Below, one piece after another: positions 27,012 through 39,264 of a DNA stretch of 64,000 nucleotides (position 1 is its first letter; the number at the start of each line of letters is the position of its first letter). The notes under the pieces are model-generated. The model saw only the letters and a program-made list of their open reading frames with translations. It made no database searches and was not told the DNA's origin. Source of the DNA: Lachnoanaerobaculum umeaense (lineage in GTDB: Bacteria; Bacillota; Clostridia; Lachnospirales; Lachnospiraceae); the NCBI RefSeq assembly GCF_003589745.1, contig NZ_CP032364.1, positions 1,674,001-1,738,000 of the forward strand. The letters run 5' to 3'. A program made the position numbers and the translations under genes.

Positions 27012-27557
27012 TTATTTCAACTTTCTTTCCATTCTATTTAATCTAAAGAATCTGAAAATAGCAACTATAGCCTGTACAATTAGAGATATAGCAATAATTA
27101 AAGATATATAGCTTGCAATTAGCAATGGATTCAATATAACTATAATACCAAATATAATTTGTATTACTGCTATTACAATAAGTCGCTGCCCTATATTTTT
27201 TTCAAACTTTACAACTCTCATTCCCATAAGCAATTTGCTTATGCCGATAAAAAACAACCAGATACCTATTGCCACAATAATAGTAATAGGTAATCCCAAA
27301 GGATATCCTATGACCAAATATATTCCTATAATTATTGAAATAATTCCTTCAACCAATCTCCAATTACTTCTGCCTTCTCTTTTTTCAGATAAATATGCAC
27401 TTATTTGTGAAATACCCTCTATCAAAAGCATTACACAGAAAATAATATTTATTGTGTACGCTATAAATAAAGGCCTTGTTATAATATATATTCCCACTAT
27501 CAAAAAGATTATTCCTGATATAAGTGAGAAATATTTTGTTCTGGAAATATCGTTCAT
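27012..27557 (-). CDS. DUF308 (HdeD-like) multi-spanning membrane protein
   Basis: 181 residues with about six hydrophobic segments in three repeated pairs, e.g. FSLISGIIFLIVGIYII, LVEGIISIIIGIYLVIG and IAVIQIIFGIIVILNPLL; the repeated gxxxxxxG-I-x-L pattern is that of HdeD/DUF308 proteins. The E. coli relative HdeD is linked to acid resistance, but the activity is unknown. The ATG shares its A with the TGA stop of the TPR gene and has AAAGGGG before it, so translation is coupled; the two proteins probably work together at the membrane. Confidence 0.85.
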   Translation of the reverse strand: MNDISRTKYFSLISGIIFLIVGIYIITRPLFIAYTINIIFCVMLLIEGISQISAYLSEKREGRSNWRLVEGIISIIIGIYLVIGYPLGLPITIIVAIGIWLFFIGISKLLMGMRVVKFEKNIGQRLIVIAVIQIIFGIIVILNPLLIASYISLIIAISLIVQAIVAIFRFFRLNRMERKLK

Positions 27558-28894
27558 CAATAACCCCTTTCTTTCTTTGAATCATTTACAAACCTGTCAT
27601 CCGGATAATTTGTAATAATTTCAGTAAATAAATTATTTGCAGTTTCTATATCTCCCATTGCCTTATATGATAGAGCTTTCTTGTACTTCGCCTCCACATA
27701 ATCCGGTGAAATTCTAAGTGCGGCATCATAATAACCTATTGCTCCTGCAAAATCTCCTGATCTGTTCAACTCATCTGCAACTTTTATCAAAAGTTTTGGT
27801 CCTTCCTCTCTCATCTTAGGTGCAATTTCTGCAAATATCCCGGTTACAGATATTTCTAATCCATTGTCCACATCTGTAAGCTGACCAACATCCAGATTTG
27901 AAAAAATCTCTGCAGCTCTTGTATAATTCTTGGTATTATACTCCTTTATAAGTCCAAGAAAATAAACATACTGTAAAAGTTTATAGTTCATATTCTCTGT
28001 AGAAGTATTATTGACCTCAGTCAGTTTGTTTACCTGCTCATTTAAATCCTCATTCTGAGTTTTTAAACTCTCCATTGCAAGATTTGTATCACTAAGTTTC
28101 TGTGATACTTCCACTATTTCCTTATTGTGGATATTACTTAGTGATACTTTCATAGTAGGCATATACAAAAATACCATGGCACATGCTCCTATTATAAGAC
28201 CTATACCAACATTGATTGCAGTAAATAATCCTGAATAGTTTCTGTAAATATCTGTCACAGGCATACTCGTATTCATATTTTCTGCAGCTTTTGCTTTTTT
28301 TACCGGACTACCTATAACATCAAGTTTTTCTTTCCTTACACTTTTCCCTTTTAATGGCTTTAGCTCATCTAAATAAGCAATAGCCTTTGCATTAAATCTG
28401 TCTATTGATATGACAGATTCCAAAAGTTTTTTAGCTTCACTTGCTCTGCCTTCTCTAATATCTAAGATTGAAAGTGCAAGCATAGCCTTCACATAATGAG
28501 GTCTTATATCCACAGCCTGCTTTAAGGTGATTCTTGCCATATCATAATTCATAGTTCTGATTTGAGAAATCGCCTTATTATACTTTGAAATAGCATCCTG
28601 TGATTTTTCTAAATACGAAGATCTATTTCTTAATTTTTGCAAATAATTTTGTGCCATATTATTTATAGGGTTTATATTTATACTGATTACCCATGAAATA
28701 AGTGCCTTTGCCTCCTCACCCATCTCAAATTGAATAAGGCCGTATAGATTTCTGGCATCTATATTTTTCTTATTCAATCCCATAGCTATGCTCAATGCAT
28801 TCAATGCCGAAGATAAATTTCTTTCCTTTGCCAAAGACAAGCCCAAATTATAATATCCGTTTGAAGCCTGCTCCAGTTTTCTTCTTTTCTTCAT
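27557..28894 (-). CDS. TPR-repeat protein with one membrane span and a coiled coil
   Basis: 445 residues. N-terminal TPR repeats (about 10-175: GYYNLGLSLAKERN, DARNLYGLIQFEMGE, YVKAMLALSILDIREG), a transmembrane segment near 225-250 (TAINVGIGLIIGACAMVFLY), a coiled coil (near 262-305, LSDTNLAMESLKTQNEDLNE) and C-terminal TPRs (GDFAGAIGYYDAALRISPDY, then AKYKKALSYKAMGD). There is no signal peptide; the two TPR blocks lie on opposite sides of the membrane. Such proteins usually hold protein complexes together. It lies between a 46-residue ORF and DUF308, with one base between its ATG and the previous stop. Confidence 0.8.
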   Translation of the reverse strand: MKKRRKLEQASNGYYNLGLSLAKERNLSSALNALSIAMGLNKKNIDARNLYGLIQFEMGEEAKALISWVISININPINNMAQNYLQKLRNRSSYLEKSQDAISKYNKAISQIRTMNYDMARITLKQAVDIRPHYVKAMLALSILDIREGRASEAKKLLESVISIDRFNAKAIAYLDELKPLKGKSVRKEKLDVIGSPVKKAKAAENMNTSMPVTDIYRNYSGLFTAINVGIGLIIGACAMVFLYMPTMKVSLSNIHNKEIVEVSQKLSDTNLAMESLKTQNEDLNEQVNKLTEVNNTSTENMNYKLLQYVYFLGLIKEYNTKNYTRAAEIFSNLDVGQLTDVDNGLEISVTGIFAEIAPKMREEGPKLLIKVADELNRSGDFAGAIGYYDAALRISPDYVEAKYKKALSYKAMGDIETANNLFTEIITNYPDDRFVNDSKKERGY

Positions 28895-28895
28895 A

Positions 28896-29036
28896 TCAGC
28901 CCTTTACTTGCTCTTTTAACATTTCCATCAAAATATCATTCATATCTGAAATATCACTTTTTGATATGATATCCTCCACAGCTGAAACATCCAGTGAAGG
29001 TTTAAATTTTTTTAATTCTTCTTCAAAATCTATCAT
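28896..29036 (-). CDS. 46-residue acidic conserved-looking small protein
   Basis: ATG at 29036 overlaps the folC stop (ATGA), stop TGA at 28896-28898, one base before the next ATG. The product starts MIDFEEELKKFKPSLDVSAV and ends LMEMLKEQVKG; it is acidic, helical in outlook, with no span or signal. GAGGAAAA in the folC tail is a ribosome site about five bases from the ATG. The exact fit between two genes with ATGA-type junctions is the main evidence that it is real. Function unknown; it might regulate or bind the TPR protein. Confidence 0.72.
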   Translation of the reverse strand: MIDFEEELKKFKPSLDVSAVEDIISKSDISDMNDILMEMLKEQVKG

Positions 29037-30235
29037 CTGTTTTCCTCTAATATCTCTCCTATTAAATACAGTGAGCCAACACAGAACAAAATTTCATCAT
29101 CTTTTTTTTCTTCTCTGGCTCTATCAAAAGCTTCTTTACTAGTATTATAGCAGGCAATGTCTGTGCTTCTTTTATTTTTTTCTAAAAGTATATTTAAGCT
29201 ATTATAAAGTTCACTGATGCTATTTGTTCTATAAGAATCTATGGATGTCAGGTAGTATTTTTCAACTTTCAAATTTGATACAATAATATCAAAAACCTTA
29301 TCCATCTCCTTATCCTTCACCAAAGAAATCAAAAGCTTAATTTTCTTTTTTTTTGTTTTCACAATATTTAAGACATTATCAATAAATTCACGTATAGCCG
29401 GCTCATTATGTGCCCCATCTATGATAATATCTTTTTCTATTTCTTCCATCCTGCCATGCCATATTGTATTTCGTATGGCTGCATCAATATTCTCTATGTT
29501 ATTAAGCAGCTGCCTTGCTCCAAGTATTGCAAGTGCAGCCGCCTTCTTCTTATATTTTATACAGGTAAAATCCAAACTTTCATATTCAAAATCTGAAAGT
29601 GCTATTAGTTTTGCATTCTGTTCTTTCGCCTTTTTTGTAATTATTTCATTTACTTCTTTATTTGAATCATCAAAAATAACCGTGGAATTACACTTTATAA
29701 TGCCTGCCTTTTCAAAAGCAATATCTCCTATATTATTCCCCAGATACTGCATATGATCCATTCCAATACTTGTGATAATTGAAAGGTTGTCATCAAAAAC
29801 ATTTGTAACATCAAGTCTTCCGCCCATACCGGTTTCCAATATTACAAAATCCAGATTGGAATTTGAAAAATGAACCATTGCAATATAAAAAAGATATTCA
29901 AAATATGTAGGAGAAATCTTGCTATTATTTAACCTCTCTCTTACATATTTTGATATACTTTCCAGGTCATCGTCACTTATAGGTATCATATCAAGCAATA
30001 TTCTTTCATTTACTTCTATCAAATGAGGTGAAATAAATGTTCCCACCCTCATTTTATTAGCTATCAAAATATTGCTCAAATATGCACATACAGAACCCTT
30101 CCCATTGGTACCGGCTACATGTATTAAATTAGGTAGCCTGATACCAAGAGCTTTGATATTTTTTTTCACTTCAGAAAGTGTATTTTTTTCCTTTGCCCAC
30201 ATGGGAATATTCTCTATATATTCTTTTTCACTCAT
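29033..30235 (-). CDS. folC: Folylpolyglutamate synthase / dihydrofolate synthase
   Basis: Adds glutamate to dihydropteroate and folates. 400 residues, somewhat shorter than the usual 420-430. ATP-binding P-loop HVAGTNGKGSVCAYL (GTNGKGS at 42-48), TFISPHLIEVNERI, ETGMGGRLDVTNVF (metal/omega region), and SIGMDHMQYLGN. The C-terminal Mur ligase domain includes DGAHNEPA. A TTG at 30256 lies inside valS; the ATG at 30235, one base after the valS stop, is chosen. No clear ribosome site, so expression relies on coupling to valS. The order valS-folC is common in Firmicutes. Another folate gene, folA, lies at 47649-48143. Confidence 0.95.
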   Translation of the reverse strand: MSEKEYIENIPMWAKEKNTLSEVKKNIKALGIRLPNLIHVAGTNGKGSVCAYLSNILIANKMRVGTFISPHLIEVNERILLDMIPISDDDLESISKYVRERLNNSKISPTYFEYLFYIAMVHFSNSNLDFVILETGMGGRLDVTNVFDDNLSIITSIGMDHMQYLGNNIGDIAFEKAGIIKCNSTVIFDDSNKEVNEIITKKAKEQNAKLIALSDFEYESLDFTCIKYKKKAAALAILGARQLLNNIENIDAAIRNTIWHGRMEEIEKDIIIDGAHNEPAIREFIDNVLNIVKTKKKKIKLLISLVKDKEMDKVFDIIVSNLKVEKYYLTSIDSYRTNSISELYNSLNILLEKNKRSTDIACYNTSKEAFDRAREEKKDDEILFCVGSLYLIGEILEENR

Positions 30236-30236
30236 A

Positions 30237-32879
30237 TCAGTCAGATAATCTTGCAAGCTGCTCTCTTACTTGAGAAAGCATCTGTTCATAGTTTTCAAGT
30301 TTTTTCTTCTCTTCATCTATTTTTGCCTGCGGAGCCTTGCTTACAAATTTTTCATTTGAAAGCATACCTGTTGATCTTGCCACCTCACCGATAAGCTTCT
30401 TTTCTTCTTTTTTAAGTCTTTCAACTTCTTTTTCTATATCTACAAGCTCCTTTAGAGGCAGACAAATAGATGCATTGGGTATTGCAACTCTCACAGAATC
30501 TTTCTCAACATTGCTGTCATCAGATTCTATTATCAGCTTATCAAGTCCTGCCAGCTGCTTAAAGAAATCTCCGGCACTTTCAAATGTATCTCTAATCTTT
30601 TCACTTTCACTTACTACAATTCCTTTTGCCTTATGTGAAGGAGGTACATTCATAGATGCTCTTACATTTCTTATTGCCCTTACAGCTTCCTTTATAAGTT
30701 CAGCCTTGTTTTCATCACCCTCAAAATTACATTCAGGATTTTCTACCGGCCAAGGTTCAACCATTATGCTCTTTGCATCTTCATTGATTGTACAATAAAT
30801 TTCCTCTGTGATAAATGGCATAAAAGGATGTAAAAGTTTTAAAATAATATTCAAAACCTCAGTAAGAACTGCAAGTGCTGTATCTCTGCTCTCATCTTCC
30901 TTATTCCAAAGTCTTACCTTTACCATCTCAATATACCAGTCACAGAACTCTTCCCATGCAAAGTCATAGATCTTTGAAAGTGCTATACCAAGTTCAAATT
31001 TATCAAGATTTGTTGTAACTTCCTTTATAAGTCGGTTTGACTTTGAAAGAATCCACTTATCAGAAAGTAAAAGCTTTGAACTGTCTATATTCTTAGGCTT
31101 TGTGTCTCCAATATTCATCATAATGAGTCTGGCTGCATTCCATATCTTATTTGCAAAGTTTCTGGCACTTTCCACTCTTTCATAGTAGAATCTCATATCA
31201 TTACCGGGTGCATTTCCGGTTATAAGCATCATTCTAAGAGCATCAGCACCATACTTATCTATTACCTCAAGAGGATCTATACCATTTCCAAGGGATTTAC
31301 TCATCTTTCTACCCTCAGAATCTCTTACAAGACCGTGAATAAGTACTGTATGGAAAGGTGATTTTTTGGTCTGCTCATAGCCTGAGAATACCATTCTTAC
31401 TACCCAGAAGAATATAATATCATATCCTGTTACAAGTACATCTGTAGGATAAAAATATTTCATCTCTTCAGTATCATCCGGCCAGCCAAGCGTTGAGAAA
31501 GGCCAGAGTGCAGAAGAAAACCAAGTATCTAAAGTATCTTCATCCTGTACAAGTTCATGACAACCACATTTTGGACAAGCATTTGGTTTATCCTTTGCAA
31601 CTGTTATTTCACCACATTCAGAACAAGTATATGCGGGTATCTGATGTCCCCACCAAAGCTGTCTTGAAATACACCAATCCCTTATGTTTTCAAGCCAATG
31701 TAAATATGTCTTTGCATAACTTTCAGGTACAAACTTAAGTTCTCCCGTTTCTATAGCTTTTATAGCCGGCTTCGCCATCTCAGACATCGAAACAAACCAC
31801 TGTGGTTTTATAAGAGGTTCAACTACAGTCTTACATCTATCATGTCTTCCTACATTGTGACTATGTGGCTCAACCTTTACCAAAAGTCCTGCTGCATCAA
31901 GATCCTTTACTATAAGCTTTCTTGCCTCATATCTGTCCAAACCGTCATATACTGTACCCTTACAGTCGATAGTTGCATCATCATTCATTATATTGATTTG
32001 AGCAAGATTATGTCTCTTTCCTACCTCAAAATCATTAGGATCATGTGCCGGTGTTATCTTCACACATCCTGTTCCAAAAGCCTTGTCAACATACTCATCT
32101 GCAACAACCGGTATCTCTCTGCCTACTAATGGTAGAATAAGCTTTTTACCTATAATGTCCTTATATCTTTCATCTAATGGATTTACTGCTACTGCAGTAT
32201 CTCCTAAAAGAGTCTCAGGTCTTGTAGTTGCAATTTCAACAAACTTGCCTTCTTCTCCGGCAATAGGGTATTTTATATGCCAGAAATTACCTTCCATCTC
32301 AATATGCTCAACCTCAGCATCTGAAATAGATGTCTTACAAACCGGACACCAGTTTATTATTCTGTTTCCCTTATATATATACCCCTTTTCATACAATCTG
32401 ATAAAGACTTCTTTTACAGCCTTTTGTCCATGTTCATCCATGGTAAATCTTTCTCTATCCCAATCAGCTGATGATCCCAGTCTTTGTAACTGGTTAATTA
32501 TTCTTGTACCATAGTCATTTCTCCATGCCCATGCTTCCTTCAAGAATCCCTCTCTTCCAAGTTCATGCTTATCCTTGCCCTCTGATTTGAGCTTTTCAAT
32601 AACCTTTACCTCTGTAGCAATGGCTGCATGGTCGGTTCCCGGCTGCCAAAGTGCCTCATAACCTGACATTCTTTTATATCTTATTAGAATATCCTGCATA
32701 GTATTGTCCAAGGCATGACCCATATGTAACTGCCCTGTAATATTAGGTGGAGGCATTATAATAGTAAAAGGTTTTTTATCTTTATTTACCTTTGCATGAA
32801 AGTACTTTTCTTCCAACCACTTTTTATATATTCTGCCCTCTATTTTTTCCGGACTATATGTCTTTTCCAATTCCTTCAT
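30237..32879 (-). CDS. valS: Valyl-tRNA synthetase
   Basis: 880 residues, full length class I synthetase. PPPNITGQLHMGHALDN carries the HIGH motif (HMGH 52-55); GRKMSKSLGNGIDPLE is the KMSKS loop; the editing CP1 domain holds ATTRPETLLGDTAVAV. Two Cys pairs (CPVCKTSISDAEVEH and CSECGE...CPKCGCHE) suggest zinc sites. The C-terminal 60 residues form the usual coiled coil (IEKEVERLKKEEKKLIGEVA). It lies 11 bases after the 272-residue TPR gene, so this housekeeping synthetase shares a transcript with the DUF5717/DUF5716 module. No T-box leader is present. Confidence 0.98.
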   Translation of the reverse strand: MKELEKTYSPEKIEGRIYKKWLEEKYFHAKVNKDKKPFTIIMPPPNITGQLHMGHALDNTMQDILIRYKRMSGYEALWQPGTDHAAIATEVKVIEKLKSEGKDKHELGREGFLKEAWAWRNDYGTRIINQLQRLGSSADWDRERFTMDEHGQKAVKEVFIRLYEKGYIYKGNRIINWCPVCKTSISDAEVEHIEMEGNFWHIKYPIAGEEGKFVEIATTRPETLLGDTAVAVNPLDERYKDIIGKKLILPLVGREIPVVADEYVDKAFGTGCVKITPAHDPNDFEVGKRHNLAQINIMNDDATIDCKGTVYDGLDRYEARKLIVKDLDAAGLLVKVEPHSHNVGRHDRCKTVVEPLIKPQWFVSMSEMAKPAIKAIETGELKFVPESYAKTYLHWLENIRDWCISRQLWWGHQIPAYTCSECGEITVAKDKPNACPKCGCHELVQDEDTLDTWFSSALWPFSTLGWPDDTEEMKYFYPTDVLVTGYDIIFFWVVRMVFSGYEQTKKSPFHTVLIHGLVRDSEGRKMSKSLGNGIDPLEVIDKYGADALRMMLITGNAPGNDMRFYYERVESARNFANKIWNAARLIMMNIGDTKPKNIDSSKLLLSDKWILSKSNRLIKEVTTNLDKFELGIALSKIYDFAWEEFCDWYIEMVKVRLWNKEDESRDTALAVLTEVLNIILKLLHPFMPFITEEIYCTINEDAKSIMVEPWPVENPECNFEGDENKAELIKEAVRAIRNVRASMNVPPSHKAKGIVVSESEKIRDTFESAGDFFKQLAGLDKLIIESDDSNVEKDSVRVAIPNASICLPLKELVDIEKEVERLKKEEKKLIGEVARSTGMLSNEKFVSKAPQAKIDEEKKKLENYEQMLSQVREQLARLSD

Positions 32880-32890
32880 ATCTACCTGCC

Positions 32891-33709
32891 TTATTTCATA
32901 TTTCTATAATCAGATTTTAGCTTAGCAATATACTCATTTATTAATTTTTTCTTCTCTTCCTTATCATCAAGCATAAAAATAGCTTCCAGATTTTTAATTC
33001 TTTCGCCCTCTCTTATACCGTTTACGGCTATATCAAATGCTTTTCTTGCTTCTACCATCAATTCCGACTTAAGTATTGCTTCTATTTCCTCATCCTTTTT
33101 TAACTTGTCATAAGGATCAAATATTCTTTTCAAGAAATATAATTCAACCAAAATCACTTCATCATTTGTAAGTTCATAAGCTTTCTTAAAAGCATCATAG
33201 GCCTCATCATATAAGAAAAGATTCGCATATACTACTCCAAGATTGTGATAAATACTTCCGACAAAACCGTTTTCAACATTTGTATCCATCTCTATTATCT
33301 CAAGATAATATTTTTTAGCCAAATCATACTTGCCTATATAAAACATATAGTCAGCTCTCTGCTTTCCAACTTCCCAAACTGCCATTTTCTTGATTTTTCC
33401 AATGACATTTCTAAAAATTATAGATTCAGCATTATTATATAAATCACATGAATCAATGATGTAGACTAGAATGTCTTCATCACATACTCCATTAGCTATT
33501 TTCCTATTTAAATTTTCAGCTAAATCCGGTAATTTTAAATCTTTTCCAATAAAATCCACCAAAGCATCACTTACTATTCCCTCCGTGACTAATATCGGAT
33601 TTTCAAATATTACATAGCATAATTCCTCAAAGCTATAAATATCCAAAGGCAAGACATCTATATGAAAAGGATTTTTCACTTCCAGAGATTCACATAAAAT
33701 CAATCCCAT
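32891..33709 (-). CDS. TPR-containing protein, partner of DUF5716/DUF5717 (unknown function)
   Basis: 272 residues, soluble, no signal peptide. Residues about 140-190 form TPR-type helices (GSIYHNLGVVYANLFLYDEA, then AFKKAYELTNDE); the N-terminal 110 residues are a separate helical domain beginning MGLILCESLEVKNPFHIDVL with SFEELCYVIFENPILV. The C terminus is a charged helix. Its ATG lies 10 bases inside the end of the DUF5716 gene with GAGG seven bases before it, indicating coupled translation and a likely physical partner. I do not recognise a named family. Confidence 0.72.
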   Translation of the reverse strand: MGLILCESLEVKNPFHIDVLPLDIYSFEELCYVIFENPILVTEGIVSDALVDFIGKDLKLPDLAENLNRKIANGVCDEDILVYIIDSCDLYNNAESIIFRNVIGKIKKMAVWEVGKQRADYMFYIGKYDLAKKYYLEIIEMDTNVENGFVGSIYHNLGVVYANLFLYDEAYDAFKKAYELTNDEVILVELYFLKRIFDPYDKLKKDEEIEAILKSELMVEARKAFDIAVNGIREGERIKNLEAIFMLDDKEEKKKLINEYIAKLKSDYRNMK

Positions 33710-34929
33710 ATATTTACCTCAATATTTCTTTTTACACCAGTGGCAGGATACATATCTCCAAATCCGGCATCTGATATTTCCAGGTTCATTACCTTATCAC
33801 TTAAAAAGTGACTTTTCAAACAAAATCTTCTGGTTTTCACCGGTCTCTTCGGCAAGAAATCCAGAGTAATAGGAATATTCTTTTTACTTTTTCCATCTAC
33901 ACTTACTATATTTATATCTATTGATTCTCTTTCATCAGGTATTAAAAATAGTTCCTCATTAGGCTCATCCCAAATATCTCCGGCTTTTCCCAAATACATC
34001 TTGCAGCTCTTACCATTACTGAAAACATTTATAAATACATCTGATTTCAGTCTTCCTTCACAAGTAGCCAATATATTATAAATCGAATTCTCACTTGCCA
34101 GATCAACTCCCTTAAATGCCGCACCTTTGGCAAAGATATTTGTGTCCAAATACACTCTGCCTCTGGAACACAGGAAACCTATAAAACCTTCTGCCCATTC
34201 ATGCTCCGCAAACACCTGCCCTGTAAGGAAAATAGAAGAGAACTTCTTTCTATCCATTACCTTCTCGGCCACAGAGGTCAATATTTTATCTGCAAGTTTT
34301 GCACCTGACGGATTATTCAATATTTGTAAGTTAAATGCCTCATCCATATTTTCAGATTCAGCATTCACAGAAAGTTTTCTTGTGTTTCTATTTACCATCA
34401 TTTCATAATATGTAAGACTTACATCTGATAAGTCAAACATTCCAACTCTATTACTCCAAATATCCTTTTTTAAGGAAAGCACAAAATATATAAAACTTTC
34501 TTCTTTACTTATAACATGTATATGATTAGGCTGATATCCAAGTCCAACAAAAGCTTCTCTGATATCTCTCACTATATATTTATCTAACTCGGCTATAGCT
34601 ATGACTACTTCATCAGGTTTTTCCTTATACAGTTTTTCCATTCCTACATTTATTATTTCTTTGAAAAAAATCTTTAGTATTTCTTTTCCATCATATTTTG
34701 TACCATCAATAGTTGCAGTACCGTTTTTTCTTGCTAATTTTAATAATTTATCAGTAATTATTCCTTTTCCATCCAGTGCAAGAGCATAGGCTTCTTCTCC
34801 CACTACCCAAGCTTCTTCACTCTTTTTCTTACTTATGATAGTAGGGAATATTATCGCTTCATCATCAGGATAAAATATAAGGCCTGTACTTATATCAGAT
34901 AAAGCAATTCCAAGCACTCTTGGATTCAT
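33700..34929 (-). CDS. DUF5716 family protein with Hsp70/actin-like layout
   Basis: 409 residues. I read an Hsp70-like order of elements: an N-terminal strand-turn-strand (RVLGIALSDISTGLIFYP) where phosphate loop 1 would be, FPTIISKKKSEEAWVVGEEA resembling the Hsp70 P-V-G-A stretch, EVVIAIAELDKYIVRDIREA with NHIHVISKEESFIYFVLSL, then VGMFDLSDVSLTYYEM in the place of the DLGGGT loop and FSSIFLTGQVFAEHEW for the adenosine loop. Glycine-rich nucleotide contacts are weakened, so ATP binding is uncertain. The first ATG (34941) has no ribosome site; GGGAG serves the ATG at 34929. No membrane signal. Partner genes on both sides suggest a cytoplasmic complex. Confidence 0.75.
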   Translation of the reverse strand: MNPRVLGIALSDISTGLIFYPDDEAIIFPTIISKKKSEEAWVVGEEAYALALDGKGIITDKLLKLARKNGTATIDGTKYDGKEILKIFFKEIINVGMEKLYKEKPDEVVIAIAELDKYIVRDIREAFVGLGYQPNHIHVISKEESFIYFVLSLKKDIWSNRVGMFDLSDVSLTYYEMMVNRNTRKLSVNAESENMDEAFNLQILNNPSGAKLADKILTSVAEKVMDRKKFSSIFLTGQVFAEHEWAEGFIGFLCSRGRVYLDTNIFAKGAAFKGVDLASENSIYNILATCEGRLKSDVFINVFSNGKSCKMYLGKAGDIWDEPNEELFLIPDERESIDINIVSVDGKSKKNIPITLDFLPKRPVKTRRFCLKSHFLSDKVMNLEISDAGFGDMYPATGVKRNIEVNIWD

Positions 34930-34957
34930 CGTATCTCCCATTTTAGATAAATTTTAG

Positions 34958-34977
34958 ATGTAAACAAATGTTTACAT
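34958..34977. promoter_or_regulatory. Perfect inverted repeat between the DUF5717 and DUF5716 genes
   Basis: ATGTAAAC (34958-34965), four bases, GTTTACAT (34970-34977), 14 bases past the... start-proximal side of the 62-base spacer. It can be a protein operator or an 8-base RNA hairpin before the DUF5716 start; no T-run follows, so it is not a terminator. Confidence 0.45.
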
Positions 34978-34991
34978 TCCTTTCATATTTT

Positions 34992-37900
34992 TTATATCAG
35001 TGTAAATAAATTATTCACCAACTCATCTTTGTATACAAATTCTGTCAGCTTTTCCTTCATTTCATCATCTTTTCCATCCGGCAAATCTTCCAAGTCATTT
35101 ATCATAATAAATCTGCTTTCCTTGGCATCAGGTTCTTTGTTAAATTGAACACAATCGGTTGTAAGTACATTGGCTGTACCCTCTGTATTTTCTAAAATCT
35201 GATACTCCCAAATTTCATCCGCAAAGATCTTTTTATGCTTAACAAAAACATTTTTATAAATATTTGGAAATTCCTCTTCTTCAAATTTATCACTAATTGG
35301 GAAAATCCTTGATTTAAATATGATGGACTCACTATTTGATTTATATTCTACAAATGCAGACTCTAAAATATCTCTGTCTATAGATATAAATCTTGACAAT
35401 GACTTAAAATATGAAAATATCATGCCCAAATCACAAAGATTTTTTACAATTAATTCGCAAAGTCTTGTCTGTTTAAAATTAAGTGTATCCTTTTTTGAGT
35501 AATACTTAGACAATGCAAGCATGTATATATTAGGAAATTCCTTCATATCATCAAAATCACTGAGTCCATCTTCCAAGTAATCAAAGACATCATCCTTAGT
35601 AAACTCGTCATTCATAAAGAATGCATCACTCTTTATTGTAAAGTATGCCCTAATAATGATATCTGTAACTCTTTTTCTATCTGTATAAATACTAAATGCC
35701 TCATCCAAATCTTTAGTTTGATTAGAGAAAAGCATTTGTATCAGTATTCTTTCCTCAAAATCATATGTTTCAACATTTCTTTCCACACATAATTTCAGGC
35801 ATTCAAACATATCTTTTGTTCTACCATTGTATACTCTGGCAATCAAGTCCAATGTTTTATCTGTAAATTTTCCTTCTTTATATAACATAAAGGCAATGCT
35901 TGCCCTGAATGTATCGTAATCTACTGCCTTTGAAATAAGGCTGAGGAGTTCCTCCTCCTTAATATGTTCTATACCAAATGCTTTTATTATATCTATTGCC
36001 TCTTTTATATTTCCGGTATTCATTAATGTATCACAATACATAAAAATATTGTCTTCATCCAAATTCAACTCACCTGTCCTATTTAAGAGTTCAAGATTAA
36101 TTATATCCTCATCCTTAGAGGATCTCCAAAAATATTCTATAAGCTTTGACAAAAGCAGGTTTTTAAAGCGGACATCAATATCTATCTCTTCAAGTGCAAC
36201 CTCAACAAGTTCAACATCTTCCAGATCTATACTATCACTCTCAGATATTATTCCCAGTTTTTCAAGCCTGTTCATATCATGATTTTCATCTATATCATAG
36301 GCTCTGTCTATCAAATTCTGCATATGGAATATCTTATCTACAACCATATCTTTAGAATAATATCTGTTTCCAAATGCATCACCAGTCAAAATTATAGCAT
36401 TTTCAGAATACAATGCTACAAACGCCCTTCCATCTACAAGATCATATATCTTTTCACCATTTAACTCCGGATATACTACAACAATGGATCTTGCTGCTTT
36501 ATCCGGAACATAAACCTCATAGGAATTCATTAAAAACGGAATTATCTTTGCCAGTCTTTCATCTACATCATCCTCTTCCAGTATTCCTGCATAGATATTT
36601 ATTAAATGCTCATCCATCCTCAACTTCATAGCATTGTCAATAGTAAATATCTTTATTCGCTTTATATAAGCTCTATAAATCTCACTATTATGAGGATAAT
36701 GTTCTACAACATTTTCAAAAATTCTCAGTTTAAAATCATCCGCCATTGAATTTATTCTTTCAAAATATTTCAATACAGACTCAGGCATAGGTAAATCATA
36801 TTTTTCAGGAAGCGAATATAAGAAATACTCGTATATCCTATCAACATTCAATCCTTTTTGAATGCATCTTTCGTACCACATGTTTACATGCTTTTTTCTT
36901 ACATTACCATTTATAAGTATTTCACATATGTCAAAAAGTAACTCATCACTTGGTAATGCATTGTATATGGAAAATAATATATTAAGTATTGCACCATTTA
37001 TCTTCTTTGTCTCTCTTACAACGACTAAAATTCTCTCAGAGAGATTAATTGATATAAGATTATTCCTTATTCCAAAGCTCAATGCCATAACTTCAAATTT
37101 TCCACACACAGTCAATAAGTGTGGATTCTTACAAAGCAGTTTTGCATACTCCATCATCAAAAGCTTTGATCTGTCTCCAAGCTCAAATGCTCTCTTTAGG
37201 ACTTTCTGCTTTTCTACAGGATTGTCTTTCAAATTATCATCTATATTTAAAATAAGAACAAGCTGAATAATGGAATGATATTTCTTATATAAATCCTTTA
37301 TCAGCTTTGTCAAATCTCTAGCCTTATCAGCATCCGGATACATATAAGTGTCCAAATATTCCAAAATCAAATACTCATCTCTTAGTTCATGCCTGTTTTC
37401 CTTGATCTTAGAAGTTAAGCTGTTGATGATAGACTTTGCACTTGCCTTATCTCCCAGTATCAAATATATCTCTGCCTTTAAAAGCTTTACTAAGAAACTT
37501 TTATATGTGCTTGCCAATAATCTATCAAGTACTGCCATCATTTTAAGTAAAATCTCATTTTTTTGTATTTTTTCACTACTAAGTTCGGCTTCAACTCTCA
37601 GCTTAAAATAATCTATCCACTGCTTTCTTTCAAAAATCCTAGCTTCTCTTTGATATTCCTTTTCAAGATTCTTATTTATTATGACTTCCAAATACTTTTC
37701 ATTCAGGCCATTTTTGAACTTTATATTTGCAATATTTTTTCTATCTTCCAACAAATTTGGATCAATAGTAAACTCCAGTTCATATACATTATCTATGAAA
37801 TCTTCATTCTTTATCTTTCCGGTATTTAACTTAATAAAAGAAGCATTTGTAGATACATCAATGTCAAGAAGTCCCCAGTTTTCCTTATAGACCTTTATGG

Positions 37901-38534
37901 TAAAGCTCTTCTCTTCTTCTATTGTAGAAATATCCAACTCATTTGACTCAAGCTCAAAGTTTACAGCCTCTTTATTACCTACAGCCTGTAAGAAATTCTC
38001 TAGATTCGATCTGGAATCTGCACCTTTACTTAATGCATCATAGATTTTTTGCAATCTTATGTCTTTCATAAATCTTGACTTACAAAAATCTTTATACATA
38101 AAAATAGCCAGTGCAATATTTATGTCTTCTTTAGCAATCACCATAAAATCATCCACTGTCTTTAATGAGTCCAGTACCAGTACTGTATCTGTATTTTTTG
38201 TATAGAAAATATAGGGTATATCTCTCTCACCTGCATTTGTAACCAAAGTGATATTACCCTCTATCTTTTCTTCACTATTAAGATTTCTGGAGTTGATTTC
38301 CAGTACAAGCTTGCTTTCTAAACCGCCAAAGGTTGCATCAACTATTCTTACTCTAATATTGTCAGAATAAGCCACGCCTCTTAAAGGTACATTGTTCTCA
38401 CTTCGTATCTCTATCTCAAAGCGAACAGCTTCATCCACCTTTATAGGCAGGTCTATATTTCCCGGCTCACAGACCAATATCGGTAATTCCTCTTCTATTA
38501 TTCCTTTAGCCAAACGATTGATTCGCTCTCTCAT
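34992..38534 (-). CDS. DUF5717 family giant protein: N-terminal beta domains plus helical repeats
   Basis: 1180 residues, the largest gene in the window. The first 110 residues look like a beta-sandwich (LPILVCEPGNIDLPIKVDEA, alternating strands up to IPYIFYTKN). A second beta domain follows near 190-295 (ISTIEEEKSFTIKVYKENWG ...). From about 300 to 1000 the sequence is helical with repeat-like spacing (AEIYLILGDKASAKSIINSL; GNIKEAIDIIKAFGIEHIKE), probably a superhelical scaffold. No signal peptide or membrane span, so cytoplasmic. AGAGGTG precedes ATG. First gene of the operon with DUF5716, a TPR protein, valS and folC. The family is conserved in Lachnospiraceae; function unknown. Confidence 0.8.
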   Translation of the reverse strand: MRERINRLAKGIIEEELPILVCEPGNIDLPIKVDEAVRFEIEIRSENNVPLRGVAYSDNIRVRIVDATFGGLESKLVLEINSRNLNSEEKIEGNITLVTNAGERDIPYIFYTKNTDTVLVLDSLKTVDDFMVIAKEDINIALAIFMYKDFCKSRFMKDIRLQKIYDALSKGADSRSNLENFLQAVGNKEAVNFELESNELDISTIEEEKSFTIKVYKENWGLLDIDVSTNASFIKLNTGKIKNEDFIDNVYELEFTIDPNLLEDRKNIANIKFKNGLNEKYLEVIINKNLEKEYQREARIFERKQWIDYFKLRVEAELSSEKIQKNEILLKMMAVLDRLLASTYKSFLVKLLKAEIYLILGDKASAKSIINSLTSKIKENRHELRDEYLILEYLDTYMYPDADKARDLTKLIKDLYKKYHSIIQLVLILNIDDNLKDNPVEKQKVLKRAFELGDRSKLLMMEYAKLLCKNPHLLTVCGKFEVMALSFGIRNNLISINLSERILVVVRETKKINGAILNILFSIYNALPSDELLFDICEILINGNVRKKHVNMWYERCIQKGLNVDRIYEYFLYSLPEKYDLPMPESVLKYFERINSMADDFKLRIFENVVEHYPHNSEIYRAYIKRIKIFTIDNAMKLRMDEHLINIYAGILEEDDVDERLAKIIPFLMNSYEVYVPDKAARSIVVVYPELNGEKIYDLVDGRAFVALYSENAIILTGDAFGNRYYSKDMVVDKIFHMQNLIDRAYDIDENHDMNRLEKLGIISESDSIDLEDVELVEVALEEIDIDVRFKNLLLSKLIEYFWRSSKDEDIINLELLNRTGELNLDEDNIFMYCDTLMNTGNIKEAIDIIKAFGIEHIKEEELLSLISKAVDYDTFRASIAFMLYKEGKFTDKTLDLIARVYNGRTKDMFECLKLCVERNVETYDFEERILIQMLFSNQTKDLDEAFSIYTDRKRVTDIIIRAYFTIKSDAFFMNDEFTKDDVFDYLEDGLSDFDDMKEFPNIYMLALSKYYSKKDTLNFKQTRLCELIVKNLCDLGMIFSYFKSLSRFISIDRDILESAFVEYKSNSESIIFKSRIFPISDKFEEEEFPNIYKNVFVKHKKIFADEIWEYQILENTEGTANVLTTDCVQFNKEPDAKESRFIMINDLEDLPDGKDDEMKEKLTEFVYKDELVNNLFTLI

Positions 38535-38736: not shown

Positions 38737-39264
38737 ATGCTCTCAGAACCTATGACATTATATAAATTAATGATACTATATATGTTAAAGCAAGTGAAAT
38801 TTCCACTTACAAACTCAAATATATCAGACTTTTTTGTCAGCAAAGAATATACCACCTATTTTATAGTTCAACAAGCTCTATCCGAGCTTTTAGAATCGAA
38901 CCTGCTTAGTATGGAAAATATAAATAATAATTCCAGGTATGAAATGACAAAGGAAGGCGAGGAAGCACTGTCTTTTTTTGAAAAACAGATTTCCCCTGCT
39001 ATTATCACTGATATAAACGAATTTATACAGACTAATAAATTTAGAATGAGAAATGAAGTCTCAACTACAGCAGAATATTACAAACTTCCGGGAAACGACC
39101 TCATTGTACATTGTGAGGTGTTAGAAGGTAAGACTCCACTTATAAATATTGAGATCAATTCACCTGATGAAGAGCAGGCAAGTATTATGACAAATAATTG
39201 GCGTTCTTGCAGTCAGGATATCTATCAATATATTATGAAAAGACTTCTTGGTGGCATGGACTAG
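38737..39264 (+). CDS. DUF4364 family protein, winged-helix-like regulator
   Basis: 175 residues. The N-terminal 90 residues resemble a PadR/MarR-like winged helix: LYKLMILYMLKQVKFPLTNS, NISDFFVSKEYTTYFIVQQA (recognition helix region), YEMTKEGEEALSFFEKQI. The C-terminal 85 residues form a mixed domain with the strands DLIVHCEVLEGKTPLINIEI. Divergent from the DUF5717 operon, so it may control it and itself through the shared 202-base gap; this is inference. AGGAGG is a strong ribosome site. It ends at a terminator shared with livF. Confidence 0.82.
   Translation: MLSEPMTLYKLMILYMLKQVKFPLTNSNISDFFVSKEYTTYFIVQQALSELLESNLLSMENINNNSRYEMTKEGEEALSFFEKQISPAIITDINEFIQTNKFRMRNEVSTTAEYYKLPGNDLIVHCEVLEGKTPLINIEINSPDEEQASIMTNNWRSCSQDIYQYIMKRLLGGMD

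Follow-up and report, generated by a model that had tools for sequence, protein, structure and literature searches.

A probable pseudo-Hsp70 gene set conserved in Lachnospiraceae and its apparent counterpart in a longer multi-Hsp70 operon

A neighborhood theme that brings Hsp70 and GrpE together has been described for bacteria before: according to a passage of PMC7159879, the second theme of the GAP1-N2 systems combines HSP70, GrpE, a second HSP70 in a subset, and fibronectin type III (FNIII) domains fused to DnaJ or to tetratricopeptide repeats (TPR). Among Hsp70 relatives, Ssz1, a lidless non-ATPase, is proposed in a passage of PMC2685646 to be a scaffold in its complex, and bacterial DnaK duplication has been surveyed in a paper (PMC11019930) whose main text does not contain the words “Clostridi” or “Lachnospir.” Here, we analyze three adjacent genes, for a DUF5717 protein, a DUF5716 protein, and a TPR protein, in a 64,000-nucleotide stretch of Lachnoanaerobaculum umeaense (contig NZ_CP032364.1, positions 1,674,001 to 1,738,000), hereafter the window, to which all coordinates of the gene set refer. 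A preliminary description of the window had taken them for a cytoplasmic, chaperone-like complex of an Hsp70-like switch, a TPR adaptor, and a giant scaffold, an interpretation that overall was partly supported. The set probably forms one obligate protein assembly, a reduced form of a multi-Hsp70 chaperone machine, as judged from sequence comparisons and from the structural model of DUF5716. The nearest published arrangement that we found is the HSP70/GrpE theme in that passage on GAP1-N2 systems. Judged by titles and the beginnings of abstracts, no description of the present operon was found; the names DUF5716 and DUF5717 surfaced only in work that, by its title, concerned an unrelated subject; essential-gene work with Lachnospiraceae gave nothing useful, judged by its listing; and no function was named for the set in the papers searched.

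The three genes lie on the minus strand. The first (34992 to 38534) encodes the 1,180-residue DUF5717 protein, the presumed scaffold, with matches to PF18984 (DUF5717_N, 9e-187) and PF18983 (the DUF5717 C-terminal family, 1e-55). The second (33700 to 34929) encodes the 409-residue DUF5716 protein, for which the sole Pfam match over the cut-off was PF18980 (DUF5716_C, 8e-78), with no match of its own to the Hsp70 family PF00012. The third (32891 to 33709) encodes the 272-residue TPR protein, which exceeded the Pfam cut-offs for TPR_8 (3e-8; 33.6 bits against 25.7) and TPR_2 (30.7 bits against 27). A DUF5716 start at 34941 would give 413 residues; the start at 34929 is the better one, with GGGAG upstream and M5 almost invariant in a 125-row alignment, and it leaves a gap of 62 bases after DUF5717 and an overlap of 10 bases with the TPR gene. 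The gene sizes, the spacing, and the TPR identity in the preliminary description were all borne out by the open reading frame list, the start analysis, and the Pfam matches, as was its absence of membrane spans on Kyte-Doolittle hydropathy alone, by which no 19-residue segment of the three proteins reached 1.6. NCBIfam held no family for any of the three. All three genes are under constraint, with ratios of nonsynonymous to synonymous divergence (dN/dS) of 0.05 to 0.10 in nine comparisons (three genes by three relatives) in which dS was at or past saturation.

The kinship of DUF5716 with Hsp70 was supported by family profile, model, and structure matches. The AlphaFold2 model showed an actin-like nucleotide-binding domain fold, and the whole chain matched DnaK residues 2 to 504. 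Searched against the PDB as a single sequence, DUF5716 gave no match up to an E value of 1, and only the family profile reached DnaK, with an alignment of the second domain that was weak when taken alone. The beta part of the substrate-binding domain (SBD-beta) is nonetheless present by the model strands and the whole-chain match to DnaK: a beta sandwich spans residues 290 to 409 (33715 to 34074; strands of the model at 290 to 410), aligned with the SBD-beta of DnaK, and has the same spacing of 98 residues as in DnaK, followed by 25 residues as opposed to 162. Across the six DUF5716 rows shown, 23 to 28 residues follow the end of SBD-beta, and by this count the helical lid (SBD-alpha) is absent.

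The nucleotide pocket appears to have been lost in part. At the phosphate-1 loop, residues 11 to 17 (34891 to 34911) read GIALSDI in place of the GIDLGTT of DnaK; the motif G[ST]x, absent from the window protein, occurred in 1 of 31 diverse DUF5716 rows and in none of the 125 rows of the larger alignment. At the phosphate-2 loop, DLGGGT in DnaK, no row of either alignment had GGGT (0/31 and 0/125), and any GG at all was found in 0/31 and 1/125. The adenosine-site glycine motif was kept, commonly as LTGxGF in the family and as the remnant LTGQVF in the window (residues 239 to 244; 34210 to 34227). The distance from the phosphate-2 to the adenosine motif was 71 residues in the window protein and 59 to 78 in the 31 rows, as opposed to 143 in DnaK and 134 to 152 in four orthologues from a longer operon. 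This segment is presumably where DnaK carries subdomain IIB, in agreement with the strand order of the model, and by spacing and strand order (judged without a superposed IIB) subdomain IIB, about 70 residues of lobe II, is missing from DUF5716. In a 47-protein alignment of Hsp70-type proteins, both phosphate loops were kept in 5 ordinary DnaK proteins and in the A, C, and D proteins (8 each) of a longer operon described below. By sequence and model, DUF5716 has an Hsp70 fold without the phosphate-loop motifs, without IIB, and without the lid, and a beta domain stands where Hsp70s have their substrate domain.

An Hsp70-type ATP cycle in DUF5716 is unlikely because the phosphate loops and the IIB-length segment have been lost, and the ATP-driven “switch” first proposed for this protein did not hold up for the same reason. 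The trio might still be a working, ATP-driven folding machine if DUF5716 turned over nucleotide by an unusual pocket, a reading that we consider quite improbable: besides the losses just given, the actin-like fold comes from a model run without ligand that may copy known states, and the family lacks a dedicated GrpE. A profile of the long GrpE-type protein of the longer operon gave 17 matches at E values of 0.001 or lower in 150 family genomes, of which 16 covered the GrpE end only and one (G149) was a weak N-terminal piece, so that full-length long GrpE was found in 0 of the 150.

The longer operon came from elsewhere in the order, where DUF5717_N matched 94 of 196 genomes, divided by a cut at E 1e-90 into 24 close and 70 diverged matches; in one of the 24 (G500), DUF5717 was split into two frames, as in many of the diverged. 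Twenty of the 70 diverged loci were fetched (the longer-type loci), with extra DNA for 12. Where the contig continued, the order was DUF5717 (as one or two genes), Hsp70-A, GrpE, Hsp70-B, Hsp70-C, Hsp70-vWA (Hsp70-D), and TPR. Example proteins matched Pfam as follows: Hsp70-A, PF00012 at 5e-76; GrpE, PF01025 at 5e-12, at the C terminus of 644 residues; Hsp70-B, both PF18980 (2.6e-27) and PF00012 (7.2e-17), each over its cut-off; Hsp70-C, PF00012 at 4e-63; Hsp70-D, PF00012 at 1.5e-96 with a vWA domain at 1.5e-10; and the TPR protein, TPR_2 at 5e-26. Hsp70-A and the GrpE-type protein followed DUF5717 in 17 of the 20 loci. The longer operon encodes a GrpE and three Hsp70s whose ATPase motifs are complete, G[IV]DxGTT and GGGT being kept in Hsp70-A, C, and D (8 each). 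At the far end, of the 11 loci whose reading extended to this point, 10 had TPR after Hsp70-vWA (L134, L144 to L150, L152, and L155); an unmatched 308-residue gene stood at the TPR place in L151, neither Hsp70-vWA nor TPR was seen in L154, and L153 ended with its contig. The vWA metal-site motif DxSxS was found in 0 of 8 Hsp70-vWA proteins. In six of the 20 loci (L127, L131, L132, L138, L142, and L143), the protein encoded before DUF5717 was 354 to 461 residues in length, had a long tail, and contained two or three hydrophobic segments; the two that were scanned showed no clear Pfam family.

Compared with DnaK and GrpE, the likeness lies in the nucleotide-binding and SBD-beta folds that DUF5716 shares with DnaK and in the three full-motif Hsp70s and the GrpE-type protein of the longer operon. 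The differences are that DUF5716 lacks the phosphate-loop motifs, the IIB-length segment, and the lid; that, in the one genome measured, SBD-beta is followed by no more than 19 residues in Hsp70-A and 31 in Hsp70-C, with a vWA domain present in D; and that the longer-operon GrpE, at 564 to 644 residues (12 rows), has a long N-terminal part. The profile of this GrpE matched 92 of 291 genomes of the class; among the matches listed, the aligned part started at model position 394 at the earliest and the frame had at most 335 residues, so that none of those listed was counted as the long type. A separate, ordinary DnaK was found in five of five genomes checked. One Lachnoanaerobaculum genome also held an extra Hsp70-like match apart from DnaK (G001:C1:930924-932090; L165, L174), in a frame of 932 residues.

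Several lines of sequence evidence indicate that the short and longer loci are orthologous. Their gene orders are collinear. Among the 15 longer-type loci in which both genes were seen, B outscored C under the DUF5716 profile in 14, and the window-type TPR profile matched the last gene of longer operons, at E values of 2e-24 to 2e-35 in nine. A divergent aminotransferase gene adjoined DUF5717 in 12 of the 20 longer-type loci, its best match being the aminotransferase found upstream and divergent in 14 of 47 family loci (43 to 59% identity). In a 47-row tree, B and DUF5716 were separated from A, C, D, and DnaK with support of 100/100. The DUF5717-DUF5716-TPR set corresponds to the longer order minus A, GrpE, C, and Hsp70-vWA. 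We infer that the direction was loss in the family, not gain elsewhere, because B keeps the IIB-length segment.

Some observations weigh against a reduced multi-Hsp70 assembly. In L136, gene C outscored gene B by a small margin under the DUF5716 profile, the gene at the B place had no match to that profile in L135 and L140, and neither Hsp70-A nor GrpE stood beside DUF5717 in L130, L139, and L142 (3/20). The tree had long branches, drew a program warning of false joins, and did not recover B as one clade, and the DnaK linker VLLLD was, by eye, not conserved in DUF5716. Exceptions to a core, obligately linked set count on the same side: DUF5716 had no match in 5 of the 150 family genomes (G031, G092, G099, G129, and G147) and DUF5717 none in 3 (G022, G031, and G092); G022 had DUF5716 alone and G147 had DUF5717 alone, in mid-contig.

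The family sample comprised 150 genomes from the family of one close relative, which we took to be Lachnospiraceae on the strength of record names. Of these genomes, 145 had DUF5716 and 147 had DUF5717; beyond the family, DUF5716 was found in 4 of 348 genomes of the phylum and DUF5717 in 11 of 291 of the class, one of the 11 below the cut-off. Both places were listed in 142 family genomes, on the same contig in 138 and on different contigs in 4, and in 138/138 of the same-contig genomes the two genes were adjacent, in the same strand and order. Gene-by-gene reading covered 47 loci (the window, six relatives, and 40 picked for long contigs and variety, seven of the 40 as odd), and the TPR gene was present in 45, the exceptions being L077, where DUF5716 was the sole member of the set, and L078, where DUF5717 was; the DUF5716 of L103, missed by the open reading frame picker, was placed there by the genome search (G372). 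In 5 of the 145 genomes, DUF5716 had an open frame of 690 to 727 residues, and all five frames also matched the TPR profile, as fusions. The proposed tie between the three genes was supported by adjacency, by TPR presence, and by these fusions. The counts of 145 and 147 of 150 genomes, together with the dN/dS ratios, speak for a core role of the set in the family. The closest named DUF5716 proteins carry the labels Lachnoanaerobaculum or Lachnospiraceae, and in six named genomes (five Lachnoanaerobaculum and one Lachnospiraceae oral taxon) DUF5716 was 82 to 83% identical. As side observations, the lone DUF5716 (L077, 9544 to 10773) and the lone DUF5717 (L078, 8424 to 11957) were in mid-contig in small genomes (1.2 and 1.6 Mb), and one genome (G130, contigs C18 and C39) gave two matches to DUF5716 and five to DUF5717, which may reflect either two copies or an assembly of mixed origin.

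The same distribution bears on a kinship with defense or conflict systems, namely, the GAP1-N2 GTPase systems, in which Hsp70, GrpE, and FNIII/TPR proteins are employed (Kaur et al. 2020). Both bring a TPR protein together with Hsp70, GrpE, and another Hsp70-like protein, the second GAP1-N2 theme, with its HSP70, GrpE, and FNIII protein, is also reported from Firmicutes in the passage cited above (PMC7159879), and the longer operon contains an Hsp70-vWA protein. No GTPase or GAP1 domain was found, however, among the Pfam-scanned operon genes (a subset of the neighbors); PADLOC had no match among 6 proteins; and the present operons have more Hsp70s and are near-universal in one family, mostly as a single-copy locus, unlike patchy defense systems. 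We regard a defense role as very improbable.

The structure of DUF5717 itself could be described less well. An AlphaFold2 model built with 7 close relatives was poor (predicted local distance difference test score, 46) and was discarded, and the DUF5717 family profile found nothing below E 0.1 in the PDB, the best match being at E 0.12. The “beta domains plus helical repeats” first ascribed to this protein were not confirmed.

A fourth gene extends the set toward the membrane in part of the family. Of the 150 family genomes, 64 carried it, 63 of them immediately downstream of the set and one on a separate contig, and it came after TPR in 17 of the 47 loci. Its protein (379 to 504 residues in the ten aligned) had two hydrophobic segments in three of four checked and one in L095; the rest was coiled-coil-like by eye, with weak PDB matches to coiled coils (best E value, 0.056), and no Pfam match was obtained in the 3 scanned. 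Its profile also matched the gene next to TPR in L146 (8.6e-40) and, in L151, the gene following the 308-residue gene at the TPR place (4e-35). The term “cytoplasmic” therefore stands for the three proteins of the set, yet a membrane protein gene joins them in those 64 genomes. The fourth gene and its positions, together with the other membrane gene before DUF5717 in 6 of the 20 longer-type loci, could speak for a platform of the envelope or of division, in which the set and the fourth protein place or tether a membrane complex and a chaperone ancestry would be incidental. We consider this unlikely, as no envelope gene recurred throughout the annotated neighborhoods of the 47 loci, and as 86 of the 150 genomes had no fourth-gene match, among them G001 and G002, both from the genus of the window, Lachnoanaerobaculum; because of those 86, the fourth gene is not core everywhere.

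Turning back to a reduced chaperone assembly, we propose that DUF5716 runs no ATP cycle and that, seated on DUF5717 with a bridge to the TPR protein, it would be a fixed binding or scaffolding subunit, the kind of role proposed for Ssz1 in the ribosome-associated complex of yeast. By this analogy, a pseudo-Hsp70 retained alongside a TPR protein and a very large partner may best be seen as a fixed subunit of an assembly. Ssz1 keeps subdomain IIB. It also differs in its partner, a J-domain protein, as no DnaJ domain was found among the scanned neighbor genes in a local scan, and in having been crystallized with ATP (title of 4gni). Clients might be held through the lidless beta domain of DUF5716, client binding by this domain being our guess given the unconserved linker, and might then be handed over to the ordinary DnaK and GrpE of the cell or, in genomes with the fourth gene, to an assembly at the membrane. 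The chaperone setting implied by the preliminary description was supported, since the orthologous locus elsewhere in the order carries three complete-motif Hsp70s and a GrpE; its ATP-driven switch was not.

A link to translation had also been suggested from the genes downstream in the window, valS (30237 to 32879, minus strand; 11 bases downstream of the TPR gene) and, downstream of it, folC (29033 to 30256, minus strand; TIGR01499, 2.7e-93), the frame of which overlaps valS by 20 bases if its start is TTG. The same gene arrangement, with valS next, recurred in six of six of the named relatives above. Within the fetched stretches, valS was present in 18 of the 47 loci, that is, in 7/7 of the window and close relatives and in 11/40 outside the genus, where it stood directly after TPR in 5 of the 40. 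We give the translation idea little weight because the valS/folC context is a feature of the genus. An Rfam scan of the window gave no family at the gathering score and no T-box before valS or elsewhere, and for that reason valS transcription may here depend on the upstream genes. The window also gave no tRNA and no CIRCE heat-shock element with up to 3 mismatches; promoter-like sites numbered 53 against 52.4 in shuffles and terminator-like sites 6 against 3.5, and neither is claimed. Upstream and divergent lies a DUF4364 gene (38737 to 39264, plus strand; PF14277, 2.8e-56), whose cluster is common to 12 of the 47 loci, and after folC lies a gene (27557 to 28894, minus strand) for a 445-residue protein with TPR at both ends and one central hydrophobic segment, whose cluster occurs in 11 of the 47.

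Lachnospiraceae make up a major part of the bacteria in the human gut, and nearly all of the family genomes sampled keep this set, for which the papers searched name no function. Recognizing DUF5716 as a pseudo-Hsp70 assigns two families of “unknown function” to a setting that can be tested. The range of loci, from those with four Hsp70-type genes and a GrpE to those with one pseudo-Hsp70, also offers a natural experiment: it could show what an Hsp70 machine still requires once ATP is no longer used. More tentatively, the order may own an undescribed giant chaperone machine, in which DUF5717 would be the scaffold for four Hsp70-type subunits, a pseudo-Hsp70 among them, together with a long GrpE of its own, an arm with a vWA domain, an adaptor with TPR, and in some cases an anchor in the membrane, and from which all ATPase subunits would have been lost in Lachnospiraceae, leaving the frame as a core ATP-independent assembly platform. 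If true, this would be a chaperone that outlived its own motor, a machine cut down to its frame.

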